This document shows, piece by piece, positions 3,132 through 19,524 of a DNA stretch of 32,805 nucleotides. The notes beneath the pieces were generated by a model that was given only the letters and a program-made list of their open reading frames with translations, made no database searches and had not been told where the DNA came from. The stretch is taken from the NCBI RefSeq assembly GCF_007625075.1, contig NZ_QMIE01000023.1, positions 1 to 32,805 of the forward strand. The letters are read 5' to 3'. The translations under genes were made by a program, and so were the position numbers. Numbering within the stretch: position 1 is the stretch's first letter; each line of letters begins with the position of its first letter. This DNA is from Oceanidesulfovibrio indonesiensis (GTDB lineage: Bacteria > Desulfobacterota > Desulfovibrionia > Desulfovibrionales > Desulfovibrionaceae).

Positions 3132-3366
3132 GGGGGGAACGTATGGCGTGTCAGTGGTCGGCAACGGTCATGCCGGTGCACTTGCCGTTGTGAGTATAAT
3201 GAAAGGCGTTTTGAGTCCAGTGAGGCTATGGTAAACCAGAGAATGTGCCGATATGGATTGGATACCTGTCGGCTTGAGAATTTGTTGACCCTTCCCCTAT
3301 TTTAAAAAAGTTTGCTTCACCTTCAGCTTCGAGCCGGTAAACACCCTAGTAGACAAAACTTGAACA
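3132..3366. other. Intergenic flank between asnS and the att site
   Basis: No gene is supported here. The frame that continues asnS upstream to 3181 is not family sequence. AT-rich stretches, including a TATAAT near 3200, are present without a matching -35. This is the chromosomal side of the left junction. Confidence 0.5.
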
Positions 3367-3400
3367 GAAAAAGGGCCTAGCGATTTAACACTAAGCCCTT
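3367..3400 (-). terminator. Orphaned original terminator of tRNA-Ala
   Basis: On the minus strand AAGGGCTTAG and CTAGGCCCTT pair around a 10-nt loop and are followed by a T-run. It directly follows the orphan tRNA-Ala 3' fragment. Before integration it would have terminated the tRNA-Ala transcript; it is now about 16 kb from the intact gene. Confidence 0.75.
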
Positions 3401-3455
3401 GAAATTCTTTTGGTGGAGCTGGAGGGAATCGAACCCACGACCTCTTGAATGCCAT
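3396..3455. repeat. Left attachment-site repeat with tRNA-Ala 3' fragment
   Basis: 60 bp identical to 19434-19493. Positions 3411-3455 equal the last 45 nt of tRNA-Ala including CCA; beyond 3455 the sequence departs from the tRNA inside the anticodon stem. This is the classic footprint of an integrase recombining within a tRNA gene. Confidence 0.93.
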
Positions 3456-3550
3456 GCCTAGTCCCCACCGTGAAAGATTATTTATTTTAGCTGGTTATGG
3501 GATAGAGGGAAACGGGATTTGGATGAATGAGGACTATATCATTGGGAAAT

Positions 3551-3584
3551 AAGGTTCACCCGATGTTCACCCAAGTTAGCCCGC
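3551..3584. repeat. Tandem GTTCACCC array, putative left integrase arm sites
   Basis: Three units GTTCACCC, GTTCACCC and GTTAGCCC lie 10-11 bp apart, about 95 bp inside the left repeat. The first part, AAGGTTCACCCGATGTTC, is nearly the same as AAGGTTCCCCGATGTTC at the other end of the element (19367-19400) and is in the same orientation. Helical spacing, presence at both ends and closeness to the core fit arm-type binding sites of a tyrosine integrase. Confidence 0.6.
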
Positions 3585-3659
3585 CCCAGCGCTTTTTTGC
3601 TGGATGCTCTGCTCCATGAAGGGGGTGATGCCGACGTAGAAGAAATCAAACCGACTAAG
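3576..3659 (-). pseudogene. Possible 3' remnant of a coding gene
   Basis: On the minus strand a short open frame with G/C-rich third positions reads RFDFFYVGITPFMEQSIQQ followed by five residues and a TAA at 3576-3578. No plausible start or Shine-Dalgarno is found upstream, and only about 28 codons look coding-like. The stop falls in the tandem arm-site array. It may be the tail of a gene lost when an earlier element excised or recombined here. I do not recognise the family. Confidence 0.3.
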
Positions 3660-3710
3660 GCCCGGGCACACAAGCCCAATACGCAACCAGACTACTGAAA
3701 TGTTGGAACT

Positions 3711-3722
3711 AACAAATTTGTT
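3711..3722. promoter_or_regulatory. Palindrome upstream of the primase gene
   Basis: AACAAATTTGTT is a perfect 12-bp palindrome, with TATTATACA 9 bp further on. It lies about 100 bp before the primase start and could be an operator over the promoter. No good -35 is visible. The remainder of 3585-3814 holds no gene. Confidence 0.4.
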
Positions 3723-3814
3723 GCCACACGTATTATACACGAGAGACTCTACTTAAAGTTCCGAGGTTGCAAACCTTTCTGTCCAGGCAGCGACTGGCTG
3801 CCAAGGAGAAGGGA

Positions 3815-6667
3815 ATGCATAACAGCGCATTACCCACAACTGCAAATCTCCCGCTCGCGTTAGCAGGAGGGGGACAGCATTTTGACTTACTCACCGTCTT
3901 GTACGGTGATCCGCTTCCGCAGGGAGTGTTTAATCTCTGGACGAAGCACAATCACGCTACCAAGAGCTTCACGCTGCCTGCTCAGGGCATGGCGGCGGGT
4001 GCGGCAATTGCTCAGCTGTCTCAGCAGCACTTGGACCTCTACTACGAGGTGGGGCTCCAGGCGAAGATACCGGCCCCGGGAAAGCGTGGCAATGAAGACG
4101 GTGTAGCGTTCATTCCTGGCGTGTGGATGGACATCGACATCGCCGGGCCCAATCATAAGGCCACGGACCTGCCGCCTGACGAACAGGCGGTCTGGGAGGT
4201 GATCAACCACTTCCCGCTGGAACCTACACTTGTTGTCCATTCCGGGGGCGGCCTGCATGTCTACTGGCTCTTCAAAAGGCCATGGGCTCTCTCCTTGGAC
4301 GAGGATCGAGAGCAGGCCAAGGCGCTGTCACGTAATTTCCAGGAGCATCTGGCCCAGTTTGCTCGCGGCAAAGGTTGGAAGCTGGACAAGACGCACGACC
4401 TCTGCCGCATCCTCCGGGTTCCTGGCTCATCCAACTACAAGGATCCGAATAACCCGGTGTCGGTCACGCTCATCCACTACGACGAGGTAGCGCGTTATGA
4501 GCCTGCGGAGATTGCCAAGCTGGTTAACCCGATTCAGGCTTCAGCCCCGAAAACGAAGGCAATTGCGATAGAGCCAGAGGTCATGCCATTGGCCAATATA
4601 CCGAAGGCCGACGCCGACAAGGTAATTGGCGAATGCGCTTGGCTTAAGCACTGCCGTGATGATGCAGCGACCCTGCCCGAACCGGAGTGGTTCGCAATGA
4701 TTAGCGTCGTCGCACCTTGTAAAGATGGGCCCGCGAAAGTCCATGAGCTGAGCAAGCCGTACCCGGGGTACAACGAGAAAGAAACCACGGCGAAGATCGC
4801 CCAGGCGCTCAGTGGCCCTGGTCCACATATGTGCTCAACAATCCGTAGTGACCGTGGCGGTGAAGCATACTGTTCGGCATGTTCCCACTGGGGCAAGGTG
4901 AAAAGCCCGATAGTTCTCGGGCTCGACCCTGCAGTGCGTGCGCTGATGCCTGTGCCTGTCAGCACTACGCTGACGCATGTCGAGGTTGAGTATGACGCTC
5001 TGGTCCCCCCCGGGTATGCGGTTTTGCCAACGGGCATTACAAAATCCGGTGCCCAAAAAGTCGATATCCAGGTGCTTGCTGTGCCGTTGTTGATCCGTTC
5101 GCGCGCCAAGGACATGGCAACAGGCAAGGAAGTGGTAGAAGTCACATGGGACAAGGACCGCGAATGGAATAAAGCCGCAGTCCCCCGTAAGACTATCTCA
5201 ACAACACGTGATATCGTAGCGTTAACCGACTATGGTCTGCCAGTGACCTCCACGAATGCGAAGCTGGTTGTGGATTTTCTGCACGACTTCGAGGTTGCGA
5301 ACCCGGCCATTCCCCTGGTCCGCTGCTCAAGTAAGCTGGGGTGGCAGGGTGAGGACTCTTTCCTGTGGGGCAATACTCTGCTGACGGCAACTGGAGGTGC
5401 TTCCGGTCTCGTCTTCCGTGGATTAGATTCCGGCGATGAACAGTTAGCGACGGCGTTTCATGCCAACGGTACCATGGATACATGGGCAACTGCGATCAAT
5501 CAGTTGTATCATTATCATCGCGTAATGGTGATGATTTACGCCTCGCTGGCAGCACCCTTCATGCAGGTTATGGGCGTTGCAAATTTCGTCGTGGATCTCG
5601 CAGGCGAGACCTCGAAAGGCAAGACCATCAGTTTGCGTGCTGCTGTGTCGGCCTGGGGGAATCCAGGTGAGCGCTCCTCAGCCTCGGCTCTCCACACCTG
5701 GGATAGTACAAAAGTGTGGCTTGAGAGCACCTCAAATCTGTTGAACGGCCTGCCGTTGGCACTGGACGATTCGAAAACTGCAAGTTCGTCCGACATCATT
5801 GGCGAGATGGTCTACCGGTACACGGCGGGAAAAGGCCGTGGTCGTGGGTCTCTTCAAGGCACCCGCCATATGGGGAACTGGTGCAGTGTTATGCTCTCCA
5901 CCGGTGAACAATCGGCGGTGGATTACTCGAAGCGACATGGTGGCACCCGTGCGCGCGTTTTGAGTCTTCAAGGCGCGCCGTTTGGCGATGGGAATCAGGG
6001 AATGCTGGTCAAGTCTCTGGATCAAGCTGTGAAGCGCAATTACGGTCATGCAGGGCCGGCGGTGGTGCAGTTTATCCTGGACCACAAGGCGGACTGGCCG
6101 CTGTGGCGCGAGGCATATCATGAAATGCAGGATCGCTACTCAAGGATGGCAGGCGATAACTCTATCGCTGGCCGTCTGGGCGACATCGTGGCCTTCCTGC
6201 ATGTAGCTATCCCGCTTATTCATGCAGCACTCCCGGCACTCAAGCCTACTCTTCCAGTTTCCACCATCATGGAGGCGCTGTGGGATGAGGTCAGTGGCCG
6301 CGCTGATGAGGCAGATCGTGCCCTGGAGGCGCTCAAGGCATTGTGGGAATGGTCGGTCACCAACCAGGACAAGTTCTGGGACAAGCACCAGGTGGACATG
6401 AGCGGAAAGCCGAAAACTCCGCATTCGGGCTGGGCCGGTGCATGGAAAGAAACGTTTCTCGCGTTCACTACCAGAACCCTCGAAACAGTGCTCAACGACT
6501 TCGATATGCCAGCAGTCCTCAACAGCTGGAAGGATCGAGGCTGGCTCGCAACCGGTTCATCGAAAGGCAAGCAGCGCAGCGTACGCATAAATGGCGTACC
6601 GACAAGTTGCTACTGCATCGATATCGGCACGTTCCAGGCAGTACTTCAGCTGCCTGTGGATAGTTAA
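3815..6667 (+). CDS. PrimPol-DUF927 primase-helicase replication protein
   Basis: The 950-aa product combines a primase and a helicase. The archaeo-eukaryotic primase-like N-terminal domain shows the metal-binding D106-I-D108 (WMDIDIAG), the nucleotide-binding S143-GGGLH148, and a downstream DLCRILRVPGSSNYKD. A middle region has a CxxCxxW (YCSACSHWG) of possible zinc-binding type. The C-terminal half is a DUF927-type SF3-like ATPase with Walker A GETSKGKT (597-604) and Walker B LALDDS (D651, D652). Such fusions replicate plasmids, satellites and integrative elements after excision. The frame is open to a TTG at 3767, but the ATG at 3815 follows AAGGAG at good spacing. It is the leftmost gene of the element, followed by iteron-like repeats that could be its origin. 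Confidence 0.88.
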   Translation: MHNSALPTTANLPLALAGGGQHFDLLTVLYGDPLPQGVFNLWTKHNHATKSFTLPAQGMAAGAAIAQLSQQHLDLYYEVGLQAKIPAPGKRGNEDGVAFIPGVWMDIDIAGPNHKATDLPPDEQAVWEVINHFPLEPTLVVHSGGGLHVYWLFKRPWALSLDEDREQAKALSRNFQEHLAQFARGKGWKLDKTHDLCRILRVPGSSNYKDPNNPVSVTLIHYDEVARYEPAEIAKLVNPIQASAPKTKAIAIEPEVMPLANIPKADADKVIGECAWLKHCRDDAATLPEPEWFAMISVVAPCKDGPAKVHELSKPYPGYNEKETTAKIAQALSGPGPHMCSTIRSDRGGEAYCSACSHWGKVKSPIVLGLDPAVRALMPVPVSTTLTHVEVEYDALVPPGYAVLPTGITKSGAQKVDIQVLAVPLLIRSRAKDMATGKEVVEVTWDKDREWNKAAVPRKTISTTRDIVALTDYGLPVTSTNAKLVVDFLHDFEVANPAIPLVRCSSKLGWQGEDSFLWGNTLLTATGGASGLVFRGLDSGDEQLATAFHANGTMDTWATAINQLYHYHRVMVMIYASLAAPFMQVMGVANFVVDLAGETSKGKTISLRAAVSAWGNPGERSSASALHTWDSTKVWLESTSNLLNGLPLALDDSKTASSSDIIGEMVYRYTAGKGRGRGSLQGTRHMGNWCSVMLSTGEQSAVDYSKRHGGTRARVLSLQGAPFGDGNQGMLVKSLDQAVKRNYGHAGPAVVQFILDHKADWPLWREAYHEMQDRYSRMAGDNSIAGRLGDIVAFLHVAIPLIHAALPALKPTLPVSTIMEALWDEVSGRADEADRALEALKALWEWSVTNQDKFWDKHQVDMSGKPKTPHSGWAGAWKETFLAFTTRTLETVLNDFDMPAVLNSWKDRGWLATGSSKGKQRSVRINGVPTSCYCIDIGTFQAVLQLPVDS

Positions 6668-6679
6668 CGAGTCAGGAAT

Positions 6680-6812
6680 GGTATGGAGGTATGGAGGTAA
6701 TTTGCCGGGGCAGACTGAAATATGGGCCAAAAGGATTCCAAAAAAGTGGAGTCCAGGGGCTTATAGCTCCGGCGTCGAAAATTGCGTCCATACCGTCCAT
6801 ACCGTCCATACC
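6680..6812. repeat. Iteron-like inverted GGTATGGA repeats, candidate replication origin
   Basis: Two direct copies of GGTATGGA (6680-6695, 8-bp period) are followed about 90 bp later by three direct copies of CGTCCATAC (6785-6811, 9-bp period). The second set is the reverse complement of the first apart from a 1-bp spacer. The two sets can pair as a long stem or act as iterons in opposite orientation. Their place right after the primase-helicase stop suggests an origin or a binding site for that protein. The repeats are also within an open frame, where they read IPSIPSIP. Confidence 0.5.
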
Positions 6813-6873
6813 AGAATTTGCAGGATTACTGGAAATTTACCACAACCCTCGACTCCCCTTATGGAGGCGCAAG

Positions 6874-7218
6874 ATGGATAAATACAATGAAATGTTGGAT
6901 AGATACTCACTGGACACGCTGATATTCGGACTCGGTGGTTCGGAAGAGGCATTGGTAAAACCTGAATCGGCGCAGGAACCGCATGCGGCTGCAGAAACCG
7001 CCGCTCAATACCCGCAACCGCCTTTTCTTGATCTGAGCTTCATCCCGTCCGAAGCTCCATTTGAAATCGCGCCTGATGCAGAGCCCCCCGATTGGATGGC
7101 AATGGAACCTCCATGCCCTGAAGACGTGTTCGAGGACCAAGTTGATTGGGGATTGGAGAACGATGAGCACGAGCACCATCTGTGCAGCGATGAGCCACAC
7201 GATCCGTTCGCGAAATAG
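6874..7218 (+). CDS. Small acidic hypothetical protein
   Basis: The 114-aa product starts MDKYNEMLDRYSLDTLIFGL and becomes strongly acidic, with a Pro- and Glu-rich middle and an Asp/Glu/His-rich end (NDEHEHHLCSDEP). The ATG at 6874 follows GGAGG by 7 nt and is preferred; the frame is open to 6691, but that start has a Shine-Dalgarno almost touching it. No domain is recognised. It is co-directional with the primase-helicase and followed by a terminator, so it is probably the second gene of the replication module. Acidic partners of this kind can be DNA mimics or replication accessory proteins, but nothing in the sequence decides this. Confidence 0.6.
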   Translation: MDKYNEMLDRYSLDTLIFGLGGSEEALVKPESAQEPHAAAETAAQYPQPPFLDLSFIPSEAPFEIAPDAEPPDWMAMEPPCPEDVFEDQVDWGLENDEHEHHLCSDEPHDPFAK

Positions 7219-7244
7219 CTACCCGGCTTGAACCCGCCACCCAC

Positions 7245-7297
7245 GCGGCCGCAGGCGAGAGGCTTACTTTGGTCTCCGTGTGCGGCCGCTCCTTTTT
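7245..7297 (+). terminator. Terminator of the replication module
   Basis: GCGGCCGCA (7245-7253) and TGCGGCCGC (7281-7289) form a GC-rich stem followed by TCCTTTTTG. It separates the primase module from the restriction-modification operon. Confidence 0.75.
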
Positions 7298-7546
7298 GTT
7301 GACCCCTGATATCCTGTTTGATCTTGTAAACGCTCAAGCTGGACGCCGGTACTACTAATCGGGTAAGTGTCCAGCTATGGAAAGTTGTTAGCTTTTTCCC
7401 GGGGTGGAAAATGGTGCAAGGGGCTGATATTTTTCATGTTGATGGTCGAGGTTTAGGACTTTACGCTAGGTTGCGGATTATCTTTCATCGAAGCCGTTTT
7501 TATCTTCAACGGCATTACCTATATATAACGAGAGTGCCTGAAAACG
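7298..7546 (+). promoter_or_regulatory. Control region of the hsd operon
   Basis: No gene is seen here. AGCTGGAC (7337-7344) and GTCCAGCT (7369-7376) form a perfect 8-bp inverted repeat 24 bp apart. GCCGTT (7493-7498) and AACGGC (7508-7513) form a second one. A TATAAC at 7524-7529 could be the -10 of the hsdM promoter, though its -35 is poor; TTGACC at 7299-7304 is an alternative without a good -10. These repeats may be operators that delay restriction after entry of the element. Confidence 0.45.
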
Positions 7547-9085
7547 ATGGCGAATACGAATAATGGCGCAACGCTCGGCTTCGAGGCGGACCTGTGGGCG
7601 GCTGCGGACGCAATGCGTGGGGGAATGGATGCTTCGGAATACAAGCACGTTGCCCTGGGTCTGATCTTCCTGAAGTACATCTCGGATGCATTCGAGGCCA
7701 AGTATCAGGAACTGCAAGCCGATGACCTTAGCGACCCCGAGGACCCGGAAGAGTACCTGGCTGAGAATATCTTCTGGGTGCCGAAAGAGGCGCGTTGGGC
7801 TTCGCTTAGGGACAACGCCAAGCAGCCCACTATCGGCAAAATTATTGATGACGCCATGATCGCCATCGAGAAGGAGAACCCCTCCCTCAAGGGCGTTCTG
7901 CCCAAGGATTACTCCCGTCCCTCCCTGAACAAGCAGGCGGTGGGAAAGCTCATCGACCTATTCAGCAAGATCGGCATGGGCGACGAGAAGGCCAAGTCCA
8001 AGGACGTGCTGGGCCGCGTGTACGAATACTTTCTAGGTCGCTTTGCCAGCGCCGAGGGACGCGCCGGCGGCGAGTTCTACACGCCCCGCTCCGTGGTCCG
8101 TTTGCTGGTCAACATGCTGGAGCCTTTCAAAGGCCGTGTGTACGACCCCTGCTGTGGCTCAGGCGGCATGTTCGTGCAATCCGAGAAGTTTGTGAAGGAG
8201 CACGATGGCCGTTTGGGCGACATCGCCATCTACGGGCAGGAGATGAACCACACCACGTGGAGACTGGCCAAGATGAACATGGCGGTGCGCGGCATCGACG
8301 CCGATATCAAGTGGAACGCAGAAGGCACCTTCCACGCCGACGAGTTCAAGGACCTGAAATTCGATTACATCCTGGCCAACCCGCCGTTTAACGTCAGCGA
8401 TTGGGGCGGCGAGCGACTGCGCGAGGACGTGCGCTGGAAGTGGGGAGCCCCGCCAGTGGGTAACGCGAACTATGGCTGGCTTTCACACATTCTACACCAC
8501 CTCAAGCCGGCCGGCACCGCAGGTGTCGTTCTGGCCAATGGATCGATGTCCACCAACCAGACTGACGAACGCACTGTCCGCAAGAACTTTGTCGATCAGG
8601 ATCTTGTGGACTGCATGATCGCGCTGCCCGGTCAGTTGTTCTACTCCACGCAGATTCCGGCGTGTCTCTGGTTCCTCACCCGCTCCAAGAAACCCAATGG
8701 TTTTCGCGCCAGAGAAAGGGAGCTGCTGTTCATCGACGCCCGCAAGATGGGCTATCTGGTGGACCGTGTGCGCCGTGAGCTGACCGATGAAGAAATCCAG
8801 AAGATTACCGCCACGTACCACGCCTGGAGGGGAGAAAAGGGGACCGGCGAGTACGAGGACACCCCCGGCTTCTGCAAGGCCGCCACACTGGAAGAGGTAC
8901 GGGCCAACGATTACGTGCTCACCCCAGGCCGCTACGTGGGCGCGGAGGAAGTGGAGGACGACGGCGTGCCCTTTGAGGAAAAGATGGCCGAGCTGACCAG
9001 CACGCTCTATGCCCAGATGGAGGAAGGCCGGGAGCTGGATGCGAAGATAAAGATGAATCTGGAGGGGCTGGGGTATGGAAGTTAA
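7547..9085 (+). CDS. hsdM: Type I restriction-modification methyltransferase subunit HsdM
   Basis: The 512-aa protein transfers a methyl group from S-adenosylmethionine to adenine N6 in the recognition sequence and is the core of the M2S and R2M2S complexes. It has the HsdM N-terminal helical domain (about residues 10-150, including [16 protein letters not shown]), the SAM-binding motif I DPCCGSGG at 200-207 and the catalytic NPPF at 278-281. Length fits the family. The ATG follows only a weak GAGAG site. Its 3' end overlaps hsdS by 11 bp, showing translational coupling. It is the first gene of the operon. Confidence 0.95.
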
Positions 9086-10352
9086 TCCTCCTTTTTTTCT
9101 TCCTGCATCGTGGCCCACCTATCCGATGGGTGAGGTCTGCAGAAAAGGGGGGGGCGACATACAAACTGGTCCTTTTGGGAACCAGTTACACAAATCCGAC
9201 TACGTAGCGGTAGGTATACCGTCAATAATGCCTGTAAATATAGGTGATAATCAAATCAACGATGTAGGAATAGCACGAATTACCGCGACAGATGCACAAC
9301 GGCTTGGCAAATATTTAGTCCGAGCAGGTGACATTGTATATAGCAGAAGAGGTGATGTAGAGCGCCGTGCGCTTGTCCGGGAAAAGGAGGATGGTTGGCT
9401 TTGCGGAACCGGTTGTCTGAGGGTGCGTTTTGGTGAAGGCGTTGTTATTCCAGAATTTGGAGCCTACTACTTAGGACACCCTGCCGTTAGAGAATGGATC
9501 GTTCGACATGCAATCGGCGCTACAATGCCGAATTTGAACACTAAGATATTGTCTGCCCTTCCGTTTGTCTTACCTCCCCTGCCTGAGCAACAAGCCATAG
9601 CCAACATTCTGGGCACGCTGGATGACAAGATCGACCTGAACCGGCGCATGAACGAGACGCTGGAGGCCATGGCGCGGGCGATCTTCAAGTCCTGGTTCAT
9701 CGACTTCGACGGCCACACCGAGTTCGAGGACAGCGAGCTCGGCCCGATCCCCAAGGGCTGGCGGGTTGGGAAGCTGGCAGATGTTGCCGACAACCCACGT
9801 CGAACTATTCAGCCATCCGATGTGCCATCCACGACACCCTACATTGGACTGCATCACATGCCGCGTCGTTGCATCGCGCTGGATGCCTGGGGTCGAGCCG
9901 ATGAGGTTGGCAGCGGCAAGTCATGGTTCAAAAAAGGTGAGATTCTGTTCGGCAAGTTGAGGCCATACTTCCATAAAGTCGGAATCGCTCCGGTCGATGG
10001 TGTGTGCTCGACGGACATTCTCGTGGTGGTGCCAAAGTCGGCTGAGTGGCACAGCTATGTAATGTCTCTGGTATCAAGCAAAGACTTTGTCGATTACACG
10101 GACACCTACTCGACTGGTACCAAGATGCCCCGCACCAACTGGAAAGACATGGGGAATTACCCTTTAGCAATCCCACCGAAATCTTTGGCAAAGGCATTCC
10201 AGGATATTACTGAAGTGTTCTACCATCGTATCGGACAGGATGTGCACCAGAACTACAGCCTTGCTAGTTTGCGAGACGCTCTCCTGCCCAAGCTAATTTC
10301 TGGCGAGTTATCGCTGACGGAAACAGAGAAAATGGTTGCGGAAGCAATATAA
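9075..10352 (+). CDS. hsdS: Type I restriction-modification specificity subunit HsdS
   Basis: The 425-aa subunit determines the DNA target of the complex. Its layout is typical: target-recognition domain 1 (about 10-165), a central conserved helix (about 170-240, containing [20 protein letters not shown] and [10 protein letters not shown]), target-recognition domain 2 (about 240-380) and a C-terminal conserved helix ending [12 protein letters not shown]. The DNA of the first recognition domain (about 9090-9560) is clearly more AT-rich than the GC-rich conserved parts around it, consistent with domain swapping. The start overlaps the hsdM end; a 17-nt gap separates it from the next gene. Target sequence cannot be predicted here. 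Confidence 0.93.
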
Positions 10353-10369
10353 GCTGAAAGGAGTCTTTC

Positions 10370-11095
10370 ATGCAGCTAGAAAATATACTTAACAAAGGCG
10401 TGTACACAATTGCTGAAGCTTCTACGCTTACAGGAGTACCGAAGAAGTCATTTTACAATTGGGTTCAAAGCTATAAAAACTTCAAGGCTAAATATAGCAA
10501 TGAACAGTTGCGGCACTTCTGGAATCCTGATTTCATTGACTTCGATGGGGGAATACTTCTTACCTTCAGGGACATAATGGAAGCAAGATTTGTTAATATG
10601 TTTCGAAAATATAATATCCCGTTCAAAAGAATCGCTTCTGCCGCATCATATTTGTCACTTGAGCTGAAAGTAATGTCTCCTTTCTCTTCTAGGATATTTG
10701 AGACAGAAGGTATAAAAATACTTGTTTTCAACGACGAAAATAAAACTCGACTGGACACACATACTAAACAGTTTCTTCTCCCGGACATGGACTTTTTAAT
10801 GAAACCAGAACGCATTGAGGCTATCAAAAGGGATGCAACAATACTGATTGACGGCATAGAATATGACGAGAAAGGAACTCCTGTATTATGGAAACCTTGC
10901 CCGAATGATTTTCCAGATATCACCATCAGGCCAGGATTGCATACGGGAAAGCCAACAATAGACAACCTTAGCGTAAGCACTCTTGTGATGCAATACGAAT
11001 TAGAAAATGACTTCCAAGAGATTGCAAAAGCATATGATACTAGACCGGAATTCGTACAGCAAGCATATGAATTTAGCAGGCGGGTAATTCAATGA
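10370..11095 (+). CDS. DUF433-type antitoxin-like DNA-binding protein
   Basis: The 241-aa product has an N-terminal MerR-like HTH (about 13-35, YTIAEASTLTGVPKKSFYNW) and a C-terminal DUF433-like HTH domain (about 184-239). The latter begins ITIRPGLHTGKPTID, close to the family pattern I-x-x-x-P-x-x-x-x-GKPxI, and ends FVQQAYEFSRR. DUF433 proteins are commonly the antitoxin partner of DUF5615 PIN-like toxins. The Shine-Dalgarno AAAGGAG is good. The stop overlaps the next start as ATGA. Base composition is much more AT-rich than hsdM or hsdR on either side, so the pair seems to be a separate cassette inserted in the operon. Alternatively it regulates the operon directly. Confidence 0.7.
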   Translation: MQLENILNKGVYTIAEASTLTGVPKKSFYNWVQSYKNFKAKYSNEQLRHFWNPDFIDFDGGILLTFRDIMEARFVNMFRKYNIPFKRIASAASYLSLELKVMSPFSSRIFETEGIKILVFNDENKTRLDTHTKQFLLPDMDFLMKPERIEAIKRDATILIDGIEYDEKGTPVLWKPCPNDFPDITIRPGLHTGKPTIDNLSVSTLVMQYELENDFQEIAKAYDTRPEFVQQAYEFSRRVIQ

Positions 11096-11478
11096 ACTTT
11101 TTAGTGGATGAATGTATAAGCCCGAAAGTGGCAAATTCATTGAAAGCTGTCTTTAACGGTAAAAGATCTGATATTAACTTTTATCATGTAGTCAAAGACA
11201 AGCCCTTTTACAAAGGGATGCCGGATAGTGAATTTTTTGACATTCTCCAAAATAAAAGTGACTGGTGTGTTTTGTCTCTAGATGGGTTCCGCCAATGGAA
11301 ACTGCTTATTAAATCTAGCGATTTTCTTGTGGTTAACTTAAAGGTTATAAAAAAAGATAAAATACCAAAGCAGGCATCGCTGTTGATCGATAACGTGCTC
11401 TGTAACAGTTCTGATTGGTGTAAAAAGCGTAGAGGACAGATTTATGCCATGACGAGAACTGGAAAATTAAAGAGCTAA
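11092..11478 (+). CDS. DUF5615-like PIN-fold toxin candidate
   Basis: The 128-aa product begins [17 protein letters not shown], the acidic N-terminal strand typical of DUF5615/Mut7-C-like PIN proteins (FLVDENLPP...), and has [10 protein letters not shown] in the middle where the family has a strand ending in an acidic residue. PIN-fold toxins are metal-dependent RNases, with acidic D6/E7 as likely metal ligands. It is Lys-rich, and its start is coupled to the DUF433-like gene by a 4-bp overlap, as usual in toxin-antitoxin pairs. Only 4 nt separate its stop from hsdR. The toxin role is inferred from family and order; the C-terminal half is not recognised. Confidence 0.65.
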
Positions 11479-11482
11479 ATAT

Positions 11483-14400
11483 ATGGTTACCACCATCAAC
11501 GAGTCCTCCATAGAAGAACTCGTTCTCGAGTTACTTGACGACCTGGGTTACACCATTGCCCATGGTCCAGATGTCGCGCCGGATGGTCCCCAGCCAGAGC
11601 GTCTTTCCTATGGGGACGTGATTCTTCTCGAGCGGCTCAAAACCTCGCTGGCGCGTATCAACCCGCACCTGAGCCCTGATGTCCTGGGCGAGGTCATCCG
11701 TAAGATACAGCAGCAGGAAACACCTTCACTGGAAGATGAGAACCATCGTCTGCACCTGTTCATGGTTGACGGTGTGGACGTGGAAGTTACCCGCGAGGAT
11801 GGGTCCATCGGCGGCGACAAGGCTTGGCTGGTGGATTTCGACAACCTGGACAACAACGATTGGCTGGCGCTGAATCAGTTCACCGTCATCGAAGGCATTA
11901 ACAACCGGCGGCCAGACATCGTCGTGTTCCTCAATGGCTTACCCGTGGCCGTGCTTGAGCTGAAGAACCCTGGTTCAGAAGACGCCACCCTTGAATCCGC
12001 CTACAACCAGCTCCAGACTTACAAAGCCCAGGTTCCCACTTTATTCCGAAGCAACATAGTGCTTGGCACGTCTGACGGTATTCTTGCCCGCCTGGGCTCT
12101 TTGACCGCCGGCGAGGAGCGGTTCATGCCCTGGCGCACTGTGGACGGCCACGAGATATTGCATAAGGGCATGCCCGAGCTGCCCACACTGCTGGAAGGTG
12201 TTTTCGATAAGCGGCGCTTTCTAGATTACTTGCGCGGGTTTGTTGTGTTCGAGAGCGACGGGGCCAAGCTGATAAAAAAGATCGCCGGATATCATCAGTT
12301 TCATGCTGTGCAACATGCGGTAGGGTGCACGGTCCAGGCGTCCAGCCCTGAGGGGGACCGTCGGGTAGGCGTTATCTGGCACACGCAGGGCTCGGGAAAA
12401 AGTCTGCTTATGGTGTTCTATGCAGGCCGAATAATCTTGCACCCCGCCATGGCTAACCCGACCATAGTTGTCATTACCGACAGGAACGACCTGGACGACC
12501 AGCTATATGGCACGTTCTGTGGCTGCTCCGACCTGCTCAGACAGATGCCTGTGAAGGCCGAATCCCGGGAGCACCTCAAAGAGTTGTTGTCCGTGGCTTC
12601 TGGCGGCATCGTATTCACCACTATCCAAAAGTTTTCTCCCGAGAAAGGGGAGGAGTATCCACTTCTCACGGACCGCCGCAATGTCGTTGTCATTGCCGAC
12701 GAGGCGCACAGGAGCCAGTACGGGTTCAGGGCCAAGGTATCTAGGGAGAGCGGCGAAATCTCGTACGGTTTCGCCAAGCACATGCGGGATGCCCTGCCCG
12801 GCGCTTCGTTCATCGGCTTCACCGGCACGCCCATCGAGGCGACTGACGTTAATACACCAGCTGTTTTCGGCAATTACATCGATATTTACGACATCCAGCG
12901 TGCGGTGGAAGACGAAGCAACCGTTCCAATTTTCTACGAAAGCAGGTTGGCCAAGATCGAACTGGACGAGAACGAGAAGCCCAGTCTGGATGAAGTGGAC
13001 GAGCTGGCTGGATATGATGACGAGTCTACCGCTGAGCGTCGCAAGGCCAAATGGTCGCGCGTGGAGGCGCTTGTTGGCGCTGAAAAGCGACTGAAGCTGA
13101 TTGCCAAGGACATTGTGGAGCACTTTGAAAGCCGCGTAGCTGCCATGCAGGGTAAAGCCATGATCGTCTGCATGAGCCGCAGAATCTGTGTGGCTTTGTA
13201 CGACGAATTGGTTGCCCTCAGGCCAGAGTGGCACCACCAGGACGACGATAAGGGCGCTGTGAAAGTTGTCATGACTGGTTCTGCATCCGATCCTTTGGAA
13301 TGGCAGAAACACAGTGGTTCTAAAGCCAGACGCGACCTGCTTGCCAAGCGAGCCAAGCAACCCGATGACGCGTTGAAGCTTGTCATCGTGCGGGACATGT
13401 GGCTGACAGGCTTTGATGCACCCTGCCTGCACACCATGTATGTTGATAAGCCCATGCAAGGGCACGGCTTGATGCAGGCCATTGCCAGGGTCAACCGGGT
13501 ATTTAAGGACAAGCCGGGCGGTCTCATCGTAGATTATATCGGATTGGCCCAGCGGCTCAAATCAGCACTGGCACAGTACTCCGAAGGCGATCGCAAGCAG
13601 GCTGGCATTGACGAACGCGAAGCCGTGGCCCTGATGAGAGAGAAGTACGAGGTGGTCCGGGATATGTACCACGGCTTTGACTACTCCAAGGCCATCACCG
13701 GCACCAATAGAGAGCGGCTATATACCATCGCTTTAGCCATGGACTGGATTCAGGAGATGCACCGAAAAGCCGCCGAGAGGGAAGACAGAGAGGAAGACAA
13801 GAAGAAGGCTTGGCGGCGCTATAGCGATGCAGTGCTGGCTCTTTCAAAGGCGTATGCCCTGGCGGCCCAGAGTGACGAAGCGAAACGTATTCGCGATGAG
13901 GTGGGCTTCTTTCAGACGGTCAAGGCCGCGCTGACCAAATCAGCGGCATCCAACAATGGCGATAAGAAGAAGGACGTGGATCTGGCTGTACAACAGATAA
14001 TCAGCCGCGCCGTTATCTCCACTGAGATTGTGGACATTCTGGAAGCCGCCGGTATTGATACGCCGGACATTTCCATCCTCTCTGACGAGTTCCTGGCCGA
14101 GCTGAAGGGGATGGAGCAGAAAAATTTTGCATTAGAGGCGCTGAAGAAGCTGCTCAATGGGCAGATCAGGTCCCAGGCCAACACCAATGTTGTGAAGAAA
14201 CGAGCGTTCTCGGATCGCTTGCAGGATGCGATCAACAGATACCACACGAATGCCATCACTACTGCCCAGGTGCTCGAAGAGCTGATCGGCCTTGCCAAGG
14301 ATCTCCGGGCGGCCAGACAACGGGGAGAAGAAGACGGCCTTTCACAGGAGGAGATCGCTTTTTATGACGCCCTAGCCGAAAACGAAAGCGCCGTACAGAT

Positions 14401-14629
14401 TATGGGGGATGTGCAGCTTAAGGTCATCGCCCACGAACTGCTTATGAGGATTAAGGCCAACGTGGGAGTTGACTGGACGCATAGCGAAAACGCCCGCGCC
14501 CGTATACGGGTGATGGTGAAGAAGATATTACGGAAGTATGGATATCCACCAGACATGCAGGACGAAGCGGTAAGAACTGTATTGGAGCAGGCTGAGGCAT
14601 TATCGGCGCAATGGAGCGAGGTTGCTTAA
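11483..14629 (+). CDS. hsdR: Type I restriction-modification restriction subunit HsdR
   Basis: The 1048-aa motor and nuclease subunit cleaves unmethylated DNA after ATP-driven translocation. The PD-(D/E)xK nuclease site is D145 with E159-L-K161 (RRPDIVV...VLELKNP). The SF2 motor shows Walker A QGSGKS (302-307), DEAH (406-409), motif III FTGTP and motif [12 protein letters not shown]. The C-terminal third (from about residue 800) is helical and resembles the DUF3387-type region that docks onto HsdM. Length is normal and no catalytic residue seems missing, so restriction should be active. Its start lies 4 nt after the toxin-like gene with only a weak AAAGAG site, implying translational coupling to that gene. 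Confidence 0.95.
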
Positions 14630-14734
14630 CTGTAAACTGACCGCGTCATTGCCTACAAGTTGCACGTGTGTCGGTATGGTGGATCATACTGTTGATAGAA
14701 TTTATGTCTCAGAGATTTTCATAGCGAAATAATA

Positions 14735-14750
14735 GGGGCCTCGCGGCCCC
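14735..14750. terminator. Terminator between convergent hsdR and recombinase
   Basis: GGGGCC TCGC GGCCCC is a tight 6-bp hairpin, 5 bp past the stop of the minus-strand recombinase and about 105 bp past the hsdR stop. The minus-strand side is followed by TATTATTTC. It probably serves both genes. Confidence 0.6.
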
Positions 14751-14754
14751 GATG

Positions 14755-15315
14755 TTACAACCAGTTTTCCAGCAACACGGTCTCGATTTCTTCTTCCTGT
14801 ATGCCCAGGTAGGCGCGGGTCACGGCTGGACTCGAATGGTTCAACCGCTTGGCTAATACCTCCCAGCTGACGCCGAACGTCTTGCGCTGATGATAAGTCC
14901 AGGTCTTGCGGAGAGTGTGCGCCCCGTAATTACCCTTAAGGTTCACGGCTGCGCACCATCGTTTAACCATCTTCGTCACCGCGTAGGTGGAGAGCGGTGC
15001 GTTGAAGCCCTTCCGGCTCTTGAACAGGTAATGTTCCTCCTTGTGGTCGGCGGTTTGCAAATGGGCGTCCAGCGCCTGCTTGATCTCTTTATTGACGATG
15101 AAGACGTTTTCTTTGTTCGTCTTGCGTTCGCGTATGGTGACGCGGTCGCCGACCTTGCGGTACATGAGGTCGCTGACTTTCAAGGCCAGCAGGTCCTGCA
15201 CGCGCAAGCCCGTATTGATGCCCATGACGAACAGCAAACGGTCGCGCGGCGACTCTACCAGCAGTTTCTTGATGCTCTTCACGTCCTTCAGCGAAATGAT
15301 GGGATCGACCTTCAT
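14755..15315 (-). CDS. Small tyrosine recombinase, catalytic domain only
   Basis: The 186-aa protein is a phage-integrase-family catalytic domain with every active-site position present: R38 (NTGLRVQDL), K65 (ERKTNK), H133 and R136 (HTLRKTW), H160 (LNHSS) and Y169. It lacks the N-terminal core-binding and arm-binding domains of a standard integrase, and the ATG has a good GGAGG site 7 nt upstream, so it is complete rather than truncated. Short recombinases of this kind resolve dimers or invert DNA segments, including hsdS genes in some type I systems. It is separate from the main integrase and is probably not the enzyme that inserted this element. Its target is unknown. Confidence 0.85.
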   Translation of the reverse strand: MKVDPIISLKDVKSIKKLLVESPRDRLLFVMGINTGLRVQDLLALKVSDLMYRKVGDRVTIRERKTNKENVFIVNKEIKQALDAHLQTADHKEEHYLFKSRKGFNAPLSTYAVTKMVKRWCAAVNLKGNYGAHTLRKTWTYHQRKTFGVSWEVLAKRLNHSSPAVTRAYLGIQEEEIETVLLENWL

Positions 15316-15489
15316 GTGCGCCCCTCCAAAGTCGGTTTTGCTGTGTAAACAGCAGGGAAACGAGCGTTCAGAATGCCCGCTCCAGGGTTAATGCTGCGAT
15401 GGCAGCAGGTAAACAGCTATGTTTTTTGTAATTTCTCACGAAAAGCCCGGGAAAGTCCGTTTCTAGAGAGAATCGTACTTTGGAAATGA

Positions 15490-15514
15490 AATGCCCCGCG
15501 CATGGCGAGGCATT
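15490..15514 (-). terminator. Hairpin downstream of the HTH/AbrB-like regulator
   Basis: On the minus strand AATGCCTCGC and GCGGGGCATT pair around a 5-nt loop, with a weak T-rich tail. It lies 25 bp past the regulator stop and about 175 bp before the small recombinase gene, so the two genes may be transcribed separately. The remainder of 15316-15489 shows no gene. Confidence 0.55.
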
Positions 15515-15539
15515 ATTTCCGATGACACGGTTTGTTGAA

Positions 15540-15899
15540 TCACAGCTTATCCAGCACGATTCTGCCGTTATCAACGGCCACGCTGAACTCATCACCGTGA
15601 TTCACGTCCAAATCGCCCAGGTCCACACTTTTGAGGGAGATTCTCAGCTCCATCTTAGCGTTGACCCGGGGGCGTGACGAGTTGCGTGCGTGCAAGCCCT
15701 TGATCTCGTAGTAAGCCCGATCCTCGTGCATGAGGCGTAGCAAGTAGCGCTTGAGCGTCTGTCGGTTCTTGATGCCCAACACCTTGAGCATTTCGTCCGC
15801 ATTCATGTCCTGTTGGACACAATCGCGCAGGAGCGTGGCATCGTACTTGGACTCGATGATTTTCTTGCCCTCGCCGGTGTCCTTCTTGTCTTTTGCCAT
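15540..15899 (-). CDS. Putative HTH/AbrB-like transcriptional regulator
   Basis: The 119-aa product starts MAKDKKDTGEGKKIIESKYD. A likely HTH spans about residues 30-57 (MNADEMLKVLGIKNRQTLKR). The C-terminal 25 residues (LDVNHGDEFSVAVDNGRIVL) resemble the swapped-hairpin half of AbrB/SpoVT DNA-binding domains, in which G-D-x-F/V is typical. The Shine-Dalgarno GGAGG is strong. An operator-like palindrome and inverted repeat lie directly upstream, suggesting autoregulation. I do not recognise a named family. It is the nearest upstream gene to the small recombinase and may control it. Confidence 0.65.
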   Translation of the reverse strand: MAKDKKDTGEGKKIIESKYDATLLRDCVQQDMNADEMLKVLGIKNRQTLKRYLLRLMHEDRAYYEIKGLHARNSSRPRVNAKMELRISLKSVDLGDLDVNHGDEFSVAVDNGRIVLDKL

Positions 15900-15910
15900 G
15901 TCGAACCTCC

Positions 15911-15971
15911 GTGTTTATGGTTGCATATTCATCTAATTTCTCTCTGTATCCAGAGATAGTTCAATAAACAC
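15911..15971 (-). promoter_or_regulatory. Operator-like promoter region of the regulator
   Basis: GTGTTTAT (15911-15918) and ATAAACAC (15964-15971) are an outer 8-bp inverted repeat. Between them TCTCTG (15941-15946) and CAGAGA (15951-15956) form a second palindrome. A TTGAAC -35-like hexamer on the minus strand overlaps the outer right arm. The symmetric layout suggests binding by the encoded regulator. Confidence 0.5.
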
Positions 15972-16201
15972 GGCAGCGTATTTCATCATTCCCTCGTCTG
16001 AAATGATGGTTTAGTGCATATGGAAACGGGCTTTGGGCCATATTTCGCGTCTCCTGGGCGTTAGCCCCTGAGGGTAGCCCAACCCCCGGGGCAGGGGGAG
16101 AAAACCCAGGAGGAGGGCTCCTAGGGGGTCAGATTTAGGGGGATGGAGAGTCATCCCAGCCTGGATGGCGTCCGAAAGGATGAAGAGGTGGGCTTTCAGT
16201 T
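15972..16201. other. Non-coding G-rich stretch
   Basis: No gene is supported. CATCATT and AATGATG form a 7-bp inverted repeat near 15986-16011, and a purine- and G-rich tract spans about 16080-16150 (CCCCCGGGGCAGGGGG). Function is unknown. Confidence 0.4.
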
Positions 16202-16230
16202 AAAAAAAGGGAGCCGCCGTAGCGGCTCCC
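16202..16230 (-). terminator. Strong intrinsic terminator of the DUF488-like gene
   Basis: On the minus strand GGGAGCCGC TACG GCGGCTCCC, a 9-bp stem, is followed by seven T residues. It lies 60 bp past the stop of the 16291-16725 gene. Confidence 0.9.
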
Positions 16231-16290
16231 GGTGAAGATGCTCAGGCTGGCGGGATAGCCTGATGCACCAAAAAGAACATGTGTTATACT

Positions 16291-16725
16291 TTACAGTGGG
16301 TTGTCAGCGATGATCTGCGCATAGTCCACTTCAATAAGTTGATGTTGTTCGCTTACCTCGACAGCTTGATGTTCTGTATGCTCATTAATAAACTCAGCAA
16401 GGATTGATCGATGACATTTGCTAGGATTCTTCTGGCAGCCGAGAAGAACTATACCATTTCCAAATCTATCGAACAGTGCATCAATTGTACATCTGAATTG
16501 TTCTAAATCAATTGCTACAAGTTGCCGATATATTTCTTTCAATGCGGCATAACTGATCTCTCCTTTGTTAAACTTAGCACTGATATCAAACGGCGGAGAG
16601 AGCCATGGTGCATGTCTGTTACTTGATAGTGATGATCCTGAAGGAATACCAGAGGTGATACCAACGGGATTTTGGAATTGCGATTCCTTTCCGTAATAGG
16701 ACATGCCAATCTTATTAGTGGGCAT
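16291..16725 (-). CDS. DUF488-like hypothetical protein
   Basis: The 144-aa product contains VLLGCQKNPSKCHRSILAEF near residue 98, matching the signature LLCxEKDPxxCHR of DUF488 proteins, a family of unknown function with a conserved Cys-His-Arg. Its N-terminal part carries PWLSPPFDISAKFNKGEISY rather than the usual DUF488 opening, so it is a divergent or partial member. The frame has an earlier ATG at 16740 without a ribosome binding site; the ATG at 16725 follows GGAG by 9 nt and is preferred. It is AT-rich compared with its neighbours and forms a single-gene unit with its own strong terminator. DUF488 proteins turn up often in mobile elements. Confidence 0.65.
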   Translation of the reverse strand: MPTNKIGMSYYGKESQFQNPVGITSGIPSGSSLSSNRHAPWLSPPFDISAKFNKGEISYAALKEIYRQLVAIDLEQFRCTIDALFDRFGNGIVLLGCQKNPSKCHRSILAEFINEHTEHQAVEVSEQHQLIEVDYAQIIADNPL

Positions 16726-16872
16726 TATAGGTGTCTCCATATTTTAGGTTTGTCATTGTCTCATGTCTTTCCCGCCAGAGATGATGATTATCACGAGACT
16801 GTGGGTATATTTAATATGTTATGTGATTGGAGTATCCGGAATGTTTGAGAGGGATTGCATTTTGTAGCCTGC

Positions 16873-16903
16873 AAAGAAAAAGCCCTGCCATGCACAGGGC
16901 TTT
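16873..16903 (-). terminator. Intrinsic terminator at the end of a structured region
   Basis: On the minus strand AAAGCCCTG TGCATGG CAGGGCTTT is followed by TTCTTT. It would end a leftward transcript coming from 16.9-17.6 kb, although no convincing gene is found there. Confidence 0.65.
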
Positions 16904-17580
16904 GCAACTGCCACTTGACCACATGGGCCAAGTAGCAGCCATACCAGAAGTCGAATGGTACGTCGCCGGACCAAGCGCTTCATTGTTTCCAGGCGTGCGG
17001 TTTTCCCGCACCTGGCGTCGCCGGACGATAAATTGTTGGAAAGTGAATAGTTCAGAAGAACTTTTTTAGATGGAAGTAGTGTAGAGTGAAAGAATTGCAT
17101 GGTAAATTACCGTCCGGTGTGCCCTTACGGCACGCAGTCACCATCAGGCCGTGTGTAGCTTCCCATTGCTATTGGCTCGAATGAGCCACGGAATGATGGC
17201 TTCCCTTGGTCGCCGCGCCGACCATTCACGTCGTCCCCGTACATTAGCGGATGCAGGTGTCCCCAACAGGTAGTAACCGAAACCTGCTAGGCGTTGGCCA
17301 TGGAGTGGTCAACGAAGTACGCGTAGCCGTTACGATCCTCGGCATCACAACATCCTCAGTCTAAGAGATACTCAAACGGGTCCGTCGCTCGGTCTCAGCC
17401 CCTCCCCCGACGGAATCGCTTCCTACCGGGTTGGCGCTCCTTCGGCGAGCGTGGTTCGAATGGGATCGACCACGAAGTTGAATCCGAAGCAAGCATGTTT
17501 TTTTGACCTCGACCCACTCGGTTATGGGTCGTCCGCACTTCAGCGGCACTCGGTCGGCAAATCGACTGCAAGGCACCCTC
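16904..17580 (-). other. Structured region without a convincing gene; ncRNA candidate
   Basis: About 680 bp, GC-rich between 17100 and 17580, with many short hairpins: ACTTGACC/GGCCAAGT near 16913-16933, GTGCGG/CCGCAC near 17000, GTGCC/GGCAC near 17118-17133 and CGCTC/GAGCG near 17430-17450. The motif CGTCGCCGGAC occurs twice (about 16962 and 17023). Minus-strand frames of 64-93 codons exist but lack ribosome binding sites and consistent codon bias. The longest (16819-17100) shows a short hydrophobic stretch that may be coincidental. A leftward terminator lies at the left end. No group II intron domain V, tmRNA or tRNA features were found. Confidence 0.4.
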
Positions 17581-17637
17581 GGCTAGCAAAATTGTATCGT
17601 TATCAGCTGATTTATTTCCCTATTTCTCTATCAAAAC

Positions 17638-17656
17638 GCAAAATTTACAATTTTGC
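17638..17656. promoter_or_regulatory. AT-rich palindrome, operator candidate
   Basis: GCAAAATT TAC AATTTTGC is a perfect 8-bp palindrome with a 3-bp spacer. A further half-site GCAAAATT lies at 17585-17592. It is part of the control region upstream of the excisionase-like and integrase genes. Confidence 0.5.
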
Positions 17657-17699
17657 ACAAGAAATTTTTTTCGTTGTATATTTCCAATGTGTAAAAAGC

Positions 17700-17748
17700 G
17701 TTCGTCGCCCTATGTGCGAGCTAATTATATTGTTCGTCGCCCTGTGTA
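17700..17748. repeat. Two direct repeats GTTCGTCGCCCTRTGTR, 32 bp apart
   Basis: Copies at 17700-17716 and 17732-17748 differ at one position and are 32 bp apart, which is three helical turns. This suggests cooperative protein binding, for example by the excisionase-like protein or a repressor. There are only two copies and no CRISPR-type array. Confidence 0.5.
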
Positions 17749-17971: not shown

Positions 17972-18202
17972 GTGCCTGATGGGCGAGGCCCTTTTCATAA
18001 TTTAAATTCTGCGGCGGCGTACTGCGGATACGCCCCAGATTATTTCCGCAAAAAGATTAAAGAATTCAATGTGCCACGATGTGGCCCTGGGAATCGGCAC
18101 TTTGCCCAGGCAGATTTGGACGCGTGGATGGAGCGCCCTGAACGCTATATAAGGGGTGGTACCCGGCAGAAGTCGAGAACCCCTATAAAGCTGGAGGTGT
18201 AA
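17972..18202 (+). CDS. Excisionase/AlpA-like HTH DNA-binding protein
   Basis: The 76-aa product has a winged-HTH of the excisionase (HTH_17) type at about residues 11-52: LNSAAAYCGYAPDYFRKKI, then the wing RHFAQADLDAWMER. Proteins of this size next to an integrase direct excision or activate the integrase gene. The start is GTG, with GGAG 11 nt upstream. The stop is 4 nt before the integrase ATG, so both are one transcript. Directionality factor is the likeliest role; a pure transcription activator (AlpA-like) is the alternative. Confidence 0.8.
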   Translation: MPDGRGPFHNLNSAAAYCGYAPDYFRKKIKEFNVPRCGPGNRHFAQADLDAWMERPERYIRGGTRQKSRTPIKLEV

Positions 18203-18206: not shown

Positions 18207-19349
18207 ATGAGCGTTCAAAGAAAGAAGCGCGATGGATCTTACCATTGTCATTTCCGAGACTATAACGGAAAGCAACGAGCCCCTTCCTTTGGGAAGGGGC
18301 GCACGGGCAAGCGGAAGGCCACGGAGTTCGATAAGCAGGTCAAAGCCTGCAAGCGCATGGGGCTCCCCCTGCCTGATCCGAAAAATCCTGAGGCAACATC
18401 AGTGGTGGAACAGCAGCCTTCTGTCGCATCCGGGCAGGTGCTGTCACCGAAACGGGTGCATGTTGCTACCGGCCCACGAGAATCGCTTTACCTGGATGAA
18501 CTGGCCCAGAAGTGGATCAACTCCCTGAGGGCTGAAGGAAAGGGGGACAGCTGGCTGCCGTATTGGGTTCGCATACTGCAGGATCACATACTGCCCGAGC
18601 TCTGCACCAGTGAGATTAATGCTCTCAACCAGGATGACATCCTGGCCGTGATGTTGCCTCTGACAGAAGGGAAGAGGCAGAGCACGCGCAACCGCTACAT
18701 GTCCTACCTGAAGATTATGATCAACTTTGGTGTGAAGCACGGTTACTGCTCGAAAAACCCGCTGCAGCATTGGCAAAAGGCAAAGGAGGCACCGCGGCAC
18801 CCTGAGGTCACTTTGGACGATGTCGATGCGATTTATCAACACGCCGCTCCCCATGTTCAATGGGCCCTTGAGGTTATGTCGTACACTGGCGCGCGTCCCG
18901 GGCCATCCGAATTGTTTGCGATGACGTGGTCTAACATCGATTGGAGTCAGCGTATGCTGTCATATTACGCCTCAAAAGTGAGAAAATGGGTGAGGATACC
19001 CCTCAACGACGACTTCTTCATGGAGTTGGCCGAAAAGCACGAACTGGCCAAGACGCCATACATTATCGAATACAATGGCAAGCCCGTGAAGAGCATCAAG
19101 AAAGCATTCGCGAACGCGGTGAGACGCGCAGGTATTGAAAAGAGGGTCTGCCCGTACGACATTCGCCACCTGTTTGCGACCAATGCCTTAAACAAAGGGG
19201 GAGACCTCAAGGCGCTGTCGGCTTTTCTCAGCCACAGCAGCACGAAGATGACAGCGGACCAGTACTACATGAACATGCGCGGCGAGATGGAGCGTATGGC
19301 CCAATTGCTTGAGGGACCGGCAAAAAGGCTCGCCAAAGCGGAGCAATAA
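18207..19349 (+). CDS. int: Tyrosine integrase of the tRNA-Ala element
   Basis: The 380-aa integrase has an N-terminal arm/AP2-like region (about 1-60, GSYHCHFRDYNGKQRAPSFG), a core-binding SAM-like domain (about 95-190) and a catalytic domain. Active-site residues are R230 (TGARPGPSEL), R320 in YDIRH, H343 (LSHSS) and the nucleophile Y353 or Y354 (ADQYYM). The first position of the HxxR box is Tyr317 instead of His, a tolerated substitution. The Shine-Dalgarno GGAGG is good. It sits 85 bp from the right attachment repeat with arm-like repeats between, the standard place for the enzyme that inserted the element into tRNA-Ala. Confidence 0.93.
   Translation: MSVQRKKRDGSYHCHFRDYNGKQRAPSFGKGRTGKRKATEFDKQVKACKRMGLPLPDPKNPEATSVVEQQPSVASGQVLSPKRVHVATGPRESLYLDELAQKWINSLRAEGKGDSWLPYWVRILQDHILPELCTSEINALNQDDILAVMLPLTEGKRQSTRNRYMSYLKIMINFGVKHGYCSKNPLQHWQKAKEAPRHPEVTLDDVDAIYQHAAPHVQWALEVMSYTGARPGPSELFAMTWSNIDWSQRMLSYYASKVRKWVRIPLNDDFFMELAEKHELAKTPYIIEYNGKPVKSIKKAFANAVRRAGIEKRVCPYDIRHLFATNALNKGGDLKALSAFLSHSSTKMTADQYYMNMRGEMERMAQLLEGPAKRLAKAEQ

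Positions 19350-19438: not shown

Positions 19439-19524
<86 letters not shown>

Follow-up and report, generated by a model that had tools for sequence, protein, structure and literature searches.

A predicted replication origin of opposed iterons behind a PrimPol-DUF927 initiator gene in an integrative element of Oceanidesulfovibrio indonesiensis

Why should five copies of one octamer lie, in two opposed groups, directly behind a gene coding for a fused primase and helicase? The question arises from a stretch of 32,805 nucleotides from Oceanidesulfovibrio indonesiensis (the window), for which an earlier note had proposed a replication origin next to the PrimPol-DUF927 gene. Our comparison with homologous loci supported this proposal: the array very probably is, or was made as, a site of Rep-dependent initiation, that is, a replication origin.

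The octamer array and its initiator

The features at and around the array are the following.

3767..6667, plus strand: rep (longest open reading frame, 966 aa), coding for a primase-polymerase, a DUF927 MCM-like helicase and a C-terminal winged-helix domain
6320..6625, plus strand: segment of rep coding HTH_56 (Cch helix-turn-helix; family match), the predicted iteron reader
6680..6695, plus strand: forward iteron pair, GGTATGGA twice (GGTATGGAGGTATGGA), 8-bp period
6696..6786, no strand: spacer of 91 bp separating the two iteron groups, not rich in AT (GC 0.51)
6787..6812, minus strand: reverse iteron triplet, TCCATACC three times, 9-bp period
6874..7218, plus strand: acidic 114-aa open reading frame with GGAGG 6 nt before its ATG, beginning past the array

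The earlier description of five motif copies within 133 bp, two in one orientation and three in the other with periods of 8 and 9 bp, was exact (6680-6812). Copies of GGTATGGA start at 6680 and 6688 on the plus strand and at 6787, 6796 and 6805 on the minus strand, and the array does follow the replication gene immediately, beginning 12 nt past the rep stop codon, which ends at 6667. By chance, 0.66 copies of GGTATGGA would be expected in 32.8 kb. When 6668-6873 was shuffled 20,000 times with its dinucleotides preserved, three copies of any octamer arose in 25 shuffles and four in none. No other 200-bp stretch of the window held at least four copies of any octamer, and 21 others (20-bp steps) held three. 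The pattern of GGTATGGA and TCCATACC separated by 80 to 110 bp had no second occurrence in the 4.29-Mb, 330-contig genome. The likeness to iterons was upheld by the shuffles and by repeats found at the same place in homologues (see below). A sixth exact GGTATGGA, at 9072-9079 on the hsdM/hsdS junction, is probably there by chance.

The array can also form a long stem, as had been suggested, and 144 nt folded as single-stranded DNA gave z = -6.4. However, the 91-bp spacer folded without its iterons gave only z = -1.6, so most of the stem arises from the opposed copies, and the long stem as a conserved object was set aside. A strong single-strand fold would also suit a transcription terminator or attenuator hairpin after rep, but terminator and promoter scans of 6400-7600 found no site, the loop would be long, and the octamer is kept in relatives beyond the needs of a stem, all of which makes a hairpin of this kind highly improbable. 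Rfam searches at gathering scores over 3200-19600 returned tRNA only.

The rep frame, with a further in-frame ATG at 3815, begins with a primase-polymerase (PHROG 2478, 3.1e-19) and contains a DUF927 match (4.8e-47). HTH_56 was matched at residues 852-953 with 21.3 bits in one scan, against a Pfam cut-off of 26.2, and with 25.6 bits in a second scan (26.7 with neighbours); a search over 395 genomes of the phylum gave eight with a match, six of them above the cut-off, own genome included. The structure of the helicase and C-terminal half was predicted from 17 sequences (pLDDT 85.2). The best fold matches of this model were to SaPIbov1 Rep (8tch; Z 35.9 over 477 residues) and to SCCmec Cch (5dgk; Z 33.5 over 480 residues), followed by MCM helicases with Z 14 and below. 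Sequence searching also found 8tch (2.1e-39) and 5dgk (6.7e-19). For the C-terminal part alone, the match was a pCW3 relaxosome accessory protein (5vfy, Z 11.9 over 95 residues; 5vfx, Z 11.4), the structures of which were solved without and with oriT DNA. Rep has both parts of a SaPI/Cch-type initiator, a DUF927 MCM-like helicase and a C-terminal helix-turn-helix.

An AT-rich region flanked by iterons, a feature of SaPI/Cch-type origins, is not present in the window array. The spacer has a GC content of 0.51 compared with 0.53 for the whole element, and the lowest GC over 40 bp after rep (0.30, from +203) lies outside the array. The outer iterons and AT-rich blocks of the two closest homologues (L110, L112) are also missing from it, and for these reasons the window array may be reduced, minimal, decaying or inactive. 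One explanation is a decayed origin, once functional, which has lost its AT-rich blocks and outer iterons and is kept only by recency. The missing parts speak for decay. Against it, no differences separate the five core copies, and both rep and the integrase gene have kept open frames; we give decay a minor but real chance. It partly overlaps with the origin reading, as does the control-site explanation considered below.

Arrays behind homologous genes

If the array is an origin, homologues of rep may carry comparable repeats, and comparing their downstream regions had been proposed as a check. The comparison found the same octamer in the two closest homologues, while most of the homologues tested had repeats of a different word. 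A search of genome and viral contigs with the single Rep protein gave no relative, and a profile search with the rep alignment gave two loci in genome contigs and seven in viral contigs. The two closest full-length homologues (L002/L036 and L003/L037, 48% identical) carry GGTATGGA(C) right behind the stop, both forward and reversed, with 109 bp between the opposed groups in L002 and 87 bp in L003, compared with 91 bp in the window. Remoter homologues use other words, GGTAATGA in L039/L113 and GTGAACA in L062.

We surveyed 70 genes: 49 from genome and viral contigs including the window, 20 named plasmid or phage records, and P4; PT1028 is not among them. The rows are not 70 independent cases, since they hold near-duplicates (L034/L041/L042, L106/L107, L063/L064 and L117/L118). 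Opposed tandem pairs 40-180 bp apart lay directly 3' of the stop in 23/70 genes, and a tandem pair with one opposed copy was found in 18/70. At least four copies of one 7-mer were present in 47/70, and fewer than four of any 7-mer in 23/70. As controls, opposed pairs occurred in none of 70 gene interiors, none of 62 stretches 900-1300 bp downstream and none of 1400 shuffles, and in the last 400 bp of the gene in 3/70. The tandem pair with one opposed copy was seen far downstream in 1/62 and in 3/1400 shuffles, and at least four copies of a 7-mer in the gene (1/70), at the gene end (6/70) and far downstream (5/62). The gap between opposed pairs was 84-109 bp in 14 of 23; by the same 7-mer measure, that of the window is 93.

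Eight of the 20 named DUF927 records had opposed tandem pairs, five had a tandem pair with one opposed copy and seven had neither. The opposed pairs belonged to Geobacillus, Kosakonia and two Streptomyces plasmids and to phages (THSA-485A and phages of Ruminococcus, Faecalibacterium and Pseudomonas, the last being phiAH14b). Neither form was found in a Nitrosoglobus plasmid, which has its own RepM, in Pseudomonas phage U10 and Rhizobium phage TM27A, or in plasmids of Methylobacterium aquaticum, Cereibacter, Antarctobacter and Paracoccus. An Anoxybacillus primase-only gene, outside the 70, was also without an array.

In L030, L078 and L099 the array lies inside the initiator open frame, as a repetitive tail past the DNA-binding domain region (VPSVPSVP in L099, RVTRVT in L078), and we infer that these are the 3/70 positives of the gene-end control. 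They bear on another explanation, namely that the window array merely encodes a protein repeat, IPSIPSIP, within a 175-aa product. A frame (6691-7218) is indeed open across the reverse triplet. However, the 8-bp period of the forward pair is not a codon multiple, the copies are opposed, and ATG 6691 lies 1 nt past a GGAGG, compared with 6 nt for ATG 6874. Moreover, homologues conserve the DNA words in both orientations, and since the three loci above translate their in-frame arrays as other repetitive tails, IPSIPSIP looks like a by-product. The earlier note had named conservation at the protein level only as the outcome that would speak against an origin; the 8-bp period, the 114-aa protein without a relative among the loci compared, and the array-bearing homologues show otherwise, and the protein-repeat reading, the chance of which we put as next to negligible, was rejected.

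The spacers themselves were folded without iterons in a set of 23, made up of 21 of the 23 full opposed-pair cores (minus L064 and L118) together with L110 and L112. Their mean z was -1.33, compared with -0.14 in 88 control stretches (Mann-Whitney p 0.0017), and z fell below -2 in 7/23 spacers and 7/88 controls. The spacers are somewhat more self-complementary than control stretches.

Two loci deserve a separate remark. A single contig (G173 contig C2) holds six DUF927 genes of this type (L031-L033, L038, L108 and L109), and two DUF927 genes on it about 5 kb apart (4742814-4744385 and 4749340-4751022) have different repeated words. At L061/L050 (G104 contig C30) the homologue is broken near its C-terminal end by two in-frame stops, and no iterons were found within the stretch tested.

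The C-terminal domain and the iteron word

In order to relate the iteron word to the protein, we compared gene pairs within a clade of DUF927 proteins only distantly related to the window Rep (about 25% identity). Of its 48 genes, 32 have at least four copies of a word, whereas in 16 no 7-mer reaches four copies; the pairing and the Mantel test on this clade left out the latter, L183 (short flank) and genes with identical C-termini. Where both the core and the C-terminal domain were at least 75% identical, 20 of 22 pairs shared the iteron word, one of the two exceptions being L171/L169, whereas with a core equally similar and a C-terminal domain below 60% none of 24 pairs did. With the core at least 60% identical, sharing was 20/22 for similar C-termini versus 3/138 for C-termini below 60%, a contrast reached by none of 5000 permutations within clusters. 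At intermediate C-terminal identity (0.60-0.75) sharing was 2/4 for cores of at least 0.75 and 4/11 for cores of 0.60-0.75, and when both identities were below 0.60 it was 14/321.

Individual pairs illustrate this link. L120 and L117 have 235 of 254 core residues in common and 40 of 71 in the C-terminus; their words are GGTGACA and GGCGACA, respectively, and neither was found in the other's 260 bp after the stop. L191 has TGGGACA, compared with GGTGACA in L190, L163 and L192 (core 0.97, C-terminus 0.55), and the words of L174 and L173 differ likewise (core 0.93, C-terminus 0.53).

Iteron identity was also set against C-terminal identity in a partial Mantel test on ranks, which gave 0.158 (2/2000) in a 31-gene set, from which P4, L064, L123, L041, L042, L107, L118 and genes with fewer than five copies of a 7-mer were left out. 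In the 32 distant-clade genes the same test was not significant (0.023, 369/1000), and the helicase-core term was 0.272 (1/1000). As only one of the two sets gave a positive result, the cassette claim rests on the close pairs. These pairs suggest the C-terminal domain as the reader of the iterons; as it adjoins the array, the two may be exchanged together.

We lean slightly towards a wider reading, in which DUF927 initiators of plasmids, phages and integrated elements in several phyla share one origin plan and the reader and its iterons form one cassette that recombination exchanges around an unchanged helicase core. The plan would consist of tandem octamers in opposed groups, with a gap most often of 84-109 bp, directly behind the gene segment for the winged helix. 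The joint reading would contradict the statement, in the part of PMC6092414 cited here, that this layout belongs to PICIs only and to no other known bacterial replicon.

The integrated element and known origins

The array lies in an element of about 16.0 kb, bounded by att repeats at tRNA-Ala and carrying an integrase, with the following features.

3396..3455, minus strand: left att copy, 60-bp identical repeat, 3' end of tRNA-Ala
7547..14629, plus strand: cargo, type I restriction-modification genes hsdM, hsdS and hsdR
14755..15315, minus strand: short tyrosine recombinase, 186 aa, catalytic domain only
17972..18202, plus strand: 76-aa excisionase-like open reading frame, named by its place beside the integrase and by an L110 homologue at the same place
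18207..19349, plus strand: tyrosine integrase, 380 aa
19434..19493, minus strand: right att copy, 60-bp identical repeat, extending into tRNA-Ala
19449..19524, minus strand: tRNA-Ala(GGC), the integration target

Direct repeats at a tRNA 3' end together with an integrase are what an integrative element carries, and a wider 90-bp match of the repeats is 89% identical. The tRNA-Ala locus of one same-genus genome was matched at 96.7% by the left 90-bp att region (3366-3455) and at 90.5% by the right flank (19401-19568). Compared with this genome, the sequence to the left of the repeat looks native and that to its right differs, a pattern that integration at a tRNA 3' end would leave. The match was confined to these two regions; asnS was not found in 3.1 kb of that locus, and a clean empty site was accordingly not seen.

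The earlier note had taken the element to lack conjugation genes, and in agreement with this no relaxase was recognised among the element's open reading frames scanned with PHROGs and Pfam. It had also likened the element to a phage satellite; this part was not borne out, as the same scan recognised no terminase, capsid, or other structural or packaging family. Several small open reading frames match no family, and the 114-aa protein behind the array has no family match and no relative among the related loci compared.

Other genes of the element are of interest in themselves. The 186-aa recombinase is 66-74% identical across the rep loci L034, L035, L106, L109, L110 and L113 (in L109 over 47 residues only) and is better conserved than rep across them; one guess is that it serves as a dimer resolvase for a replicating circle. 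Between hsdS and hsdR (10370-11478) lie HTH/DUF433-like and PIN-like proteins, a toxin-antitoxin-like pair, and a DUF488-like protein at 16291-16740 matches the candidate defence model PDC-M45C.

The closest known systems are those of SaPIs, Gram-negative PICIs, SCCmec Cch, phage P4 and plasmid pRN1. According to the parts of PMC6092414 and PMC7581432 cited here, the origins of SaPIs and E. coli PICIs sit directly 3' of the initiator gene; PMC6092414 further describes an EcCICFT073 rep-ori segment that supported a plasmid in E. coli and, in its Fig. 2 legend, PICI origins with an AT-rich region always flanked by iterons. Like the window, SaPIbov1 has a DUF927/MCM-like Rep with a C-terminal DNA-binding domain and opposed iterons directly 3' of rep, and the window likewise has two opposed sets of short iterons immediately behind the gene. 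It differs in the primase-polymerase fused to Rep, in an array reduced to the core, in a spacer that is not AT-rich, and in that no phage-hijacking genes were recognised in the element. The SaPI-like PT1028 has AGTTCCC at +90 and +99 with an opposed copy at +196, a gap of 90 bp (93 in the window), and further copies on both sides. Gram-negative PICIs such as EcCICFT073 also share with the window two sets of iterons right behind the initiator gene, an integrase and att sites (as described in the cited part of PMC6092414), whereas the window element has no AT-rich region and no recognised packaging or interference genes, and carries type I restriction-modification cargo. Since the AT-rich feature is absent and packaging genes were not recognised, we claim no PICI membership; on our best reading the element is likened to a SaPI in the working of its origin and yet not filed as a PICI.

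SCCmec Cch (pattern 1) resembles the window Rep in having DUF927 and the Cch helix-turn-helix domain as well as in predicted fold (Z 33.5), but the window element has a tyrosine integrase at a tRNA where SCCmec has Ccr recombinases. That Cch contains DUF927 is given in PMC7581432, the cited part of which also reports that no SCC origin had been identified earlier and that one was characterised for Cch2, a different helicase. The plasmid pRN1 likewise pairs a PrimPol-helicase-winged-helix protein with a downstream element, here an essential, conserved 100-nt stem-loop and not octamer iterons, and its helicase is of superfamily 3 (PMC4234260, in the part cited). Many such primases, some of them fused to DUF927, sit in integrated mobile elements, as stated in the cited part of PMC5862659. 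Our literature search joining DUF927 with iteron gave no match beyond PMC7581432.

Phage P4 lends itself to a different explanation, in which the array binds Rep as a control site (copy number, incompatibility or repression) and the true start lies elsewhere in the element. The annotated P4 crr resembles the window array in having octamer repeats in both orientations beside a primase-helicase gene (alpha), yet the annotated origin of P4, with more type 1 repeats, is a different site some 4.5 kb from it. In contrast, the window has one array: apart from the lone copy at 9072, no second cluster of at least four octamers was found in it, so that the P4-like combination of a crr array and repeats at a separate origin is missing. 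P4 also differs from the window in the family of its helicase. The position occupied by the window array is, moreover, that of the origin in SaPIs and E. coli PICIs in the cited parts of PMC6092414 and PMC7581432, and we consider a control site quite unlikely.

Returning to the origin reading, we propose that the array acts as the replication origin of the 16-kb integrative element. Each GGTATGGA octamer would be bound by the winged helix at the C-terminus of the PrimPol-DUF927 protein. Through the opposed iteron groups, 91 bp apart, two MCM-like helicase rings would be loaded; these rings may melt the spacer and then move apart. The fused primase-polymerase domain would lay the first primers, to be extended by host enzymes, with initiation taking place on the circle that the integrase is expected to release; excision and subsequent replication are thus part of the proposal. 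Judged from sequence, the array is a predicted SaPI/Cch-type origin in a core-only variant, associated with restriction-modification cargo.

Pfam still lists DUF927 under a name that stands for unknown function. If our reading holds, the origin of a DUF927 initiator and its DNA word would often be predictable from sequence alone, because the array lies right behind the gene. The natural exchanges provide ready-made pairs for studying how the C-terminal domain reads its octamer, and they also suggest that a SaPI-like origin plan extends beyond phage satellites. In O. indonesiensis, such an origin would let the restriction-modification cargo replicate as its own replicon.
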